Under the pieces are notes generated by a model. It was not told where the DNA came from. It was given only the letters and a program-made list of their open reading frames with translations, and searched no databases. From Natronorubrum halalkaliphilum (GTDB lineage: Archaea; Halobacteriota; Halobacteria; Halobacteriales; Natrialbaceae), in the NCBI RefSeq assembly GCF_009834785.1, contig NZ_WUYX01000038.1:2947-66946 (forward strand): a DNA stretch of 64,000 nt, in the 5' to 3' direction. Shown here piece after piece: positions 48,057 to 49,419 of the stretch (position 1 is its first letter; the number at the start of each line of letters is the position of its first letter). Position numbers and translations under genes: made by a program.

Positions 48057-48509
48057 TCACGTGATCTCGTCGTCCCACGCCTGATCGATTCGGTCTTCGA
48101 CGGCAGCCACCACCGTCGAGAGGACGTCGATCGGGTGTCGTGACGGCAACTCGAGATCGACGGTATCGGCTCCGTCCGGTGGCCGATGGAAGTGGAGTCG
48201 CGCGTTGTGTCCGTTCGGGTGACGGTCCCAGCGACACTCCCAGTGGTCGTCAGTGACCGTCGTCTCGACGTAATGAACGGTGAAATCCCCGGTCGTGAAC
48301 CATCGAACGTCGAGCCGAGCGGTATCGATCGAGGGCGGGTATGGTTCGGTATCGACGTGTCCCTCGAGGACGCGCGGTTCATCGCTCCCAGGACGGAACT
48401 CCGTTTGCGAAACGAGCGGATCGTCCGCGAGTCGACGTTCGAGCACCCGGAGCGTCTGGCGATCGGGTGGCCCCGTCGCCCGCGGGCCGTCGTCGGACGA
48501 GCCACCCAT
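48057..48509 (-). CDS. RWDRHPN-motif protein, partner of an HTH regulator
   Basis: The protein has 150 residues. The middle has DTARLDVRWFTTGDFTVHYVE, then CRWDRHPNGHNARLHFHRPPDGAD, a His/Asn/Arg-rich motif that looks like an active-site or metal-binding block, then a helical end (IDVLSTVVAAVEDRIDQAWD). The motif occurs in a haloarchaeal family I know only as uncharacterised. The HTH gene's stop abuts this start with no spacer. The pair looks like a toxin-antitoxin module, but no function has been shown. Confidence 0.8.
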   Translation of the reverse strand: MGGSSDDGPRATGPPDRQTLRVLERRLADDPLVSQTEFRPGSDEPRVLEGHVDTEPYPPSIDTARLDVRWFTTGDFTVHYVETTVTDDHWECRWDRHPNGHNARLHFHRPPDGADTVDLELPSRHPIDVLSTVVAAVEDRIDQAWDDEIT

Positions 48510-49052
48510 CTATGGTGAGGTCGGGACGAGATGGCCGTCGTTCTGTACGATCTGGCGTGCGAGTTCGTAAAGTCGGATATCCCGCTCGAGGGCGTGCCAG
48601 TCGCTCAGCCGAACCATTACGGTGTGAATGTCGTCGTGATCGTTGTGGTCGAAGGCCGAGATCGAGGACGGATCAGTCGTCTCGAATTCGTCGACGTACG
48701 CCTCACGACGGTCCTCCAACGTGGCGACGCGGTCGATAATCTCCTCGACCGTGTGCTCCTCAGCGAGTCGACTCGCTTCCTGCCACTCAAGATAGCCATC
48801 GTTGCGCTCGTAACGGGCCGGTTGGGCGTCCTGATCGGCCCGTACGATCCCCATTTCGGCGAGGCGATCGAGGTGTTTTTTCGCCGCGTTTGGTGAACAG
48901 CCCGCAACTGATGCGATCTCGGTGTACGGGGTGAGTTCCGTCACGCCGAGTGCGCTGTCGTAGACACGATCGAACGTATCGCTGGTCTCGCGCCACCGCT
49001 GTCGCACGTCGTCGACGGCCTCCTGATCCGGGACTGGATCAAACTCGGTCAT
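48510..49052 (-). CDS. HTH transcriptional regulator (DUF7342-like)
   Basis: The protein has 180 residues. A winged-helix region, YTEIASVAGCSPNAAKKHLD then RLAEMGIVRADQD, lies in the first half. The second half is helical and ends with LSDWHALERDIRLYELARQI. Such proteins occur widely in haloarchaea next to the RWDRHPN-type partner. Its promoter has a strong TATA (ACATATATTATTGC on the minus strand) about 27 bases before the ATG. It may repress its own operon. Confidence 0.85.
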   Translation of the reverse strand: MTEFDPVPDQEAVDDVRQRWRETSDTFDRVYDSALGVTELTPYTEIASVAGCSPNAAKKHLDRLAEMGIVRADQDAQPARYERNDGYLEWQEASRLAEEHTVEEIIDRVATLEDRREAYVDEFETTDPSSISAFDHNDHDDIHTVMVRLSDWHALERDIRLYELARQIVQNDGHLVPTSP

Positions 49053-49083: not shown

Positions 49084-49188
49084 GTGGGGTCTCACAAATA
49101 TCTGACCCGATCCGGCGTTCGCCGAACGCGAGGTTCCCACTCACTCGTCGTCGATGCGTATTTCAGCCGACCCGGACAACGAACGCCT

Positions 49189-49419
49189 ATGAGCTCCGAT
49201 GCAGACGTCGACCCCTCCGACTACGAGGAGTACGAGGCTCTCGAGGACGCCGACGTGACCATGCGAGTGAACGATCACGGCCTCCACATCGCCGACGACG
49301 AGGTAACCGGCGTCTCGAGTCAGGGACAGACGCCGGAGGCGGCACTCGAGAATCTCGCGGCGGCGGTCGAATCCTACAGGGACGCGACCGACGACGATCC
49401 GGGCGACGACTGGCTCTGA
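49189..49419 (+). CDS. HicB-like small protein (orphan)
   Basis: The protein has 76 residues from the ATG at 49189 (MSSDADVDPSDYEEYEALED). It contains DADVTMRVNDHGLHIADDEV and TGVSSQGQTPEAALENLAAAVESY, the partial RNase H-like fold of HicB antitoxins. No HicA toxin gene is adjacent. In haloarchaea such orphan proteins are common and may have other partners. It is transcribed divergently from the HTH gene. Confidence 0.7.
   Translation: MSSDADVDPSDYEEYEALEDADVTMRVNDHGLHIADDEVTGVSSQGQTPEAALENLAAAVESYRDATDDDPGDDWL

Follow-up and report, generated by a model that had tools for sequence, protein, structure and literature searches.

Two abutting genes raise the question of whether they form a toxin-antitoxin (TA) system and, if so, to which known family its effector belongs. 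In the 64-kb window (the whole stretch of DNA that was analyzed), the upstream gene occupies positions 49052-48510 of the minus strand and encodes an HTH protein of 180 amino acids, and its partner follows on the same strand at 48509-48057 and encodes 150 amino acids, both with ATG starts. The initial annotation had described the stop of the first gene as abutting the start of the second, and this was confirmed: the TAG codon (48512-48510) is followed directly by the ATG at 48509. This two-gene arrangement is more than chance, since it recurs at 55 of the 61 places where the partner family was found in 41 haloarchaeal genomes, with the HTH gene directly upstream and on the same strand, and since purifying selection acts on each of the two genes (dN/dS relative to the nearest orthologue of 0.12 for the HTH gene and 0.19 for the partner gene).

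The HTH gene and its upstream region

The HTH protein (48510-49052, minus strand) matched Pfam family DUF7342 (PF24033) with 83.1 bits against a curated cut-off of 31.6. This winged-HTH family is without functional assignment; from the Pfam match and the linkage to the partner family, we propose that it serves as antitoxin and autorepressor, in a role like that of TumA. PADLOC returned Csa3 for the same protein, but the matches were weak and look like common winged-HTH similarity, and this identity was rejected. In a literature search, no paper naming DUF7342 was found, and DUF6516 (the former name of the Pfam TumE family) combined with 'toxin' led to the TumE paper only (PMC10584680); a keyword search of Makarova 2009 and 2014 gave no mention of the DUF7342/partner pair. 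The pair is widespread on haloarchaeal plasmids and chromosomes, yet seems to be undescribed.

A TATA-like element, CATATATTATTG, lies at 49084-49073 on the minus strand, centered ~27 nt before the ATG of the HTH gene, and a TATA element occupies the same place in orthologues. Because of this spacing, the HTH gene is likely to have a leaderless archaeal promoter. The initial annotation had proposed one strong leaderless promoter for both genes; its leaderless character fits the TATA spacing, but promoter strength is not readable from the sequence, and a sigma-70 promoter scan is inapplicable to archaea. Beside the TATA box, 52 nt before the ATG, we found the inverted repeat CANATATNTG (palindrome CAGATATTTG, 49095-49104, minus strand), which occurs once in the window, where 0.06 occurrences were expected. 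The same repeat was present in 22 of 88 non-redundant sequences upstream of DUF7342 genes, compared with 0.16 in shuffles, and in nearly all members of the window's subfamily it lies at -51 to -55, usually ~19 bp before the TATA element. Its uniqueness in the window and its recurrence make it the probable operator of the DUF7342 protein, which is likely to repress its own operon. A first composite-operator pattern had no match in the window, since the TATA spacing and sequence found there deviate from it; when only the palindrome is used as the pattern, the window matches.

A second recurrent near-palindrome, GGAAACTATTCC, was observed upstream of the HTH genes of other DUF7342 subfamilies (loci L024, L079-L083 and L125), at a place similar to that of CANATATNTG in the window's subfamily. 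The two elements are possibly subfamily-specific operators.

Divergent from the HTH gene, at 49189-49419 on the plus strand, is a gene for a 76-amino-acid protein of Pfam family DUF7387 (32.5 bits, cut-off 27.9). Throughout the genus this gene remains a neighbor of ffh, including at loci that lack the HTH/partner pair, and it was rejected as a part of the module.

Linkage, mobility and decay of the pair

Searches of the 41 haloarchaeal genomes at E<=1e-4 placed the partner family at the 61 places mentioned above, in 28 genomes and with zero to five copies per genome, although pair counts depend on the E-value limits. Of the six remaining places, three hold a damaged toxin gene, one has a pair whose members lie ~1.6 kb apart, and two have an intact-looking toxin for which no HTH gene was found nearby. 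A further 40 DUF7342 loci had no partner visible to BLAST; their inspection yielded 27 pairs with a downstream match to the partner profile, two of the matches being weak (one known by its motif, the other a frame-broken remnant). Solo HTH genes occur and solo intact toxins are rare, an asymmetry that would be expected if the former encode an antidote and the latter a poison. The two proteins also diverge together: their distances co-vary with a Mantel r of 0.94 over 67 pairs (permutation maximum 0.14), which speaks for joint inheritance rather than physical contact, since related genomes are not independent samples.

Some loci show the genes in other states. At L103 (1275-1748) and L104 (704-1087), intact-looking toxin ORFs were seen and a DUF7342 gene was not found nearby; these are candidates for orphan or inactive toxins. 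At L069 (3905-3979) and L115 (2764-2979), the antitoxin gene is cut at its 5' end, so the promoter side is lost, and the downstream toxin reading frame is still there; these toxins are probably silenced.

The family appeared in 139 plasmid records, all of them haloarchaeal among the matches listed, and of the 29 best HTH matches listed, all but one lay within ~50 bases of a partner match. On the Haloarcula plasmid pNG200 (33 kb), parA and a gene for replication factor A are located near the pair. In a sample of 120 genomes from the phylum, 19 belong to the family's own order, of which 16 carried it, and it was absent from the remaining ~101; no relatives were detected in phage records or in IMG/VR, the latter scanned with one conserved peptide pattern. 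Two further pairs were recognized by profile in the host genome itself (contigs C43 and C22), and a fourth pair, near 34.5 kb on C43, is more diverged. Altogether, these results describe a conserved, compact two-gene operon with a mobile and patchy distribution, as is characteristic of type II TA systems.

The pair adjoins ffh (SRP54) both in the window and in a number of relatives, which might suggest a housekeeping function tied to that gene or to the neighboring dihydrolipoyl dehydrogenase gene. We consider this extremely improbable, because, among 10 genomes of the genus, four carry the pair at the ffh locus and the other six lack it there with ffh intact, and most relatives are found elsewhere, often on plasmids. 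Three related genomes have a clean empty site of 122-124 bp at this locus, and Natrinema gelatinilyticum and N. zhouii retain remnants in which a deletion fuses the N-terminus of the HTH protein to the C-terminus of the toxin. The initial annotation had noted that conservation as a housekeeping single gene would speak against a TA module; the linked, patchy and plasmid-borne pairs contradict such a role.

The pair could also be a plain regulatory operon, with the HTH protein as the sensor of a ligand and a nontoxic partner that acts as an accessory or ligand-binding subunit. The HTH protein resembles regulators of the ArsR/TrmB type, the conserved palindrome suggests autoregulation, and the His-rich site of the partner could bind a metal. 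However, a variable copy number, spread on plasmids and clean empty sites are at odds with this explanation, as are the co-variation of the two genes as a mobile unit and the homology of the partner to TumE, and we regard it as quite improbable.

Probable relationship of the partner protein to TumE

The TumE-TumA superfamily (Pfam PF20126, formerly DUF6516) consists of toxins that are mostly encoded downstream of their partner gene; those that were tested arrest E. coli, the antitoxin encoded with each of them neutralizes it, and inhibition of translation was demonstrated for one (Durairaj et al. 2023, PMC10584680). RNase activity has been proposed for TumE, but is unproven (PMC10584680).

The partner protein contains the His- and Arg-rich string CRWDRHPNGHNARLHFHRPP at residues 92-111, just as the initial annotation had reported. 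Its conserved residues are H79-Y80, R93-W94-D95-x-H97 and H106-x-H108; in alignment A3, R93, W94, D95, H97, H106 and H108 were invariant or nearly so, and in alignment A2, R71, D73, H84 and H87 were invariant, which reproduces the R-[YW]-D...H-x-H core of the TumE superfamily. The initial annotation had likened the string to a nuclease or metal site; such a role is putative, the string being aligned with the conserved core of TumE, for which RNase activity is itself unproven.

The window's partner itself did not match Pfam TumE at E<=1 and falls short of the curated cut-off; searches of Pfam, NCBIfam, PADLOC and PHROGs were uninformative for it, and a PDB sequence search with the toxin profile gave nothing. 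Its relatives are more informative: 19 of 46 aligned family members matched Pfam TumE, the next best family matching three, and the protein of locus L073, which is encoded directly downstream of a DUF7342 gene, passed the curated TumE cut-off with 24.0 versus 23.4 bits and so links the family to TumE as an intermediate. When the profile of the window's subfamily was compared with that of 20 haloarchaeal TumE proteins, YP…FTVHY…RWD…HFH aligned with YP…KYSxQY…RYD…HHxH; the score of 26.0 was higher than that of any of 150 column shuffles, which reached at most 22.1, and the hhalign probability of the direct comparison was 22%.

The structure prediction suggested in the initial annotation pointed in the same direction. 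With a mean pLDDT of 91.8, the AlphaFold2 model of the partner is confident; it starts with a helix, continues through seven strands and closes with another helix, and R93-W94-D95-x-H97 sits where one strand ends, with H106-x-H108 on the following strand. The published TumE layout also has two helices and seven strands, without a confident PDB match (Durairaj et al. 2023, PMC10584680). The two helices on a seven-stranded antiparallel sheet that define the TumE fold were recognized here by the order of elements and not by superposition, and a haloarchaeal TumE model, likewise compared by the order of its secondary structure, has a matching core of five strands plus a helix. Foldseek searches of the PDB and BFVD found no relative of the partner model with an E-value <0.1, and the best VIA-align Z-scores were ~7 (CapZ, Atg10, Mediator), within the range that its notes call uninformative.

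Since the protein has no Pfam TumE match and the hhalign probability is 22%, the case for its membership in the superfamily comes from intermediates, from the register of the motif and from topology, and because it does not pass the strict Pfam test, we call it TumE-like. It is probably a TumE relative, as a divergent member at the superfamily level. Alternatively, the operon might encode a toxin that is no TumE relative, with an H-x-H/RWD likeness that arose by convergence and with another target, such as DNA, a metabolite or a protein. The low direct profile probability and the lack of a confident structural relative in the PDB or BFVD would agree with this, and so would certain family members (class III, below) without the R and D of the motif. 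We nonetheless hold it to be unlikely, given the members that match TumE, one of them over the curated cut-off, a register and strand order shared with TumE, and a profile score above that of every shuffle. Of the possible 'uncharacterised' TA module of the initial annotation, the TA character is supported by comparison, whereas the effector, as a probable TumE relative, is not unrelated to everything known.

Like TumE-TumA systems, the pair is a two-gene operon with the toxin gene downstream, as in most TumE clusters; its effector has two helices, seven strands and an R-aromatic-D...H-x-H core, and distant members of the partner family score as TumE. It differs from them in that the toxins of the partner family are ~145-160 amino acids long with an N-terminal helix, compared with ~100 for TumE, in that the window's protein lies below Pfam's detection, and in that the partner gene is a DUF7342 winged HTH and not the RelB-like antitoxin of TumE cluster 1. 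Classical haloarchaeal TumE genes (L036, L042, L043, L044, L047, L048, L052, L055) are followed by a recurrent HTH-like protein, which is probably an antitoxin of another family. These loci share with the window pair the toxin superfamily, the hosts and an HTH-like neighbor, but their putative antitoxin is encoded downstream and has another sequence, whereas DUF7342 is encoded upstream. For this reason, the DUF7342 pairing stands apart both in its type of antitoxin and in the order of its genes.

Downstream of high-scoring DUF7342 genes, L131-L156 encode a diverged class of partners with GWHxDExHxDLGxxHFQ in place of CRWDRHPNxHNxRxHFH; no Pfam family scored over its cut-off for this class, to which many of the 27 profile-found pairs belong. 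The partners may fall into at least three toxin classes, marked by RWDRHP...HFH, by RWDxHP...HFHPPP with a C-terminal extension, and by GWHxDExHxDLGxxHFQ. With GWHxD...HFQ instead of RWDxH...HFH, class III partners may have a different activity, and catalysis may consequently not be common to the whole superfamily.

Proposed mechanism and significance

The two-gene linkage, patchy multi-copy occurrence, presence on plasmids, co-variation, losses and distant TumE homology provide good comparative evidence for the TA layout at which the initial annotation had guessed. We consider it highly probable that the pair is a TA operon of an autoregulating DUF7342 antitoxin and a divergent TumE-type toxin (48057-48509, minus strand), the latter predicted from intermediates, profile comparison and model topology. 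The TumE-like label is used because relatives match Pfam TumE, the model has the α–7β–α layout, and RWDRHP…HFH aligns with RYDN…HHxH.

According to our model, the DUF7342 protein encoded by the upstream gene would bind and neutralize the downstream product and, alone or in the complex, would repress its own promoter through the CANATATNTG palindrome, perhaps also binding the similar TATA region ~19 bp further on. By analogy with TumE, the 150-amino-acid toxin would inhibit translation, probably through RNase activity, and thereby halt growth. R93-W94-D95-x-H97 and H106-x-H108, which cluster in the model at the strand end and on the next strand, are likely to form its active site. If the operon were lost or the antitoxin level dropped, free toxin would arrest the cell, which might stabilize plasmids or serve a role in stress or defense.

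More broadly, all DUF7342 proteins could constitute a haloarchaeal antitoxin family, paired with very diverse TumE-like toxins of at least three classes, the third of which, without the RWD core, would have a new activity, and ranking among the commonest TA families of haloarchaea; this extension is tentative, and we would place it slightly below an even chance.

These findings give a testable function to a widespread haloarchaeal pair, found on chromosomes and plasmids and annotated as 'HTH' and 'hypothetical protein', and name a candidate operator for it. With them, the TumE superfamily would gain a divergent archaeal branch whose antitoxin type and gene order are both new. If the proposal is true, it would provide a native archaeal TA family for studies of plasmid stability, persistence or virus defense in halophiles.
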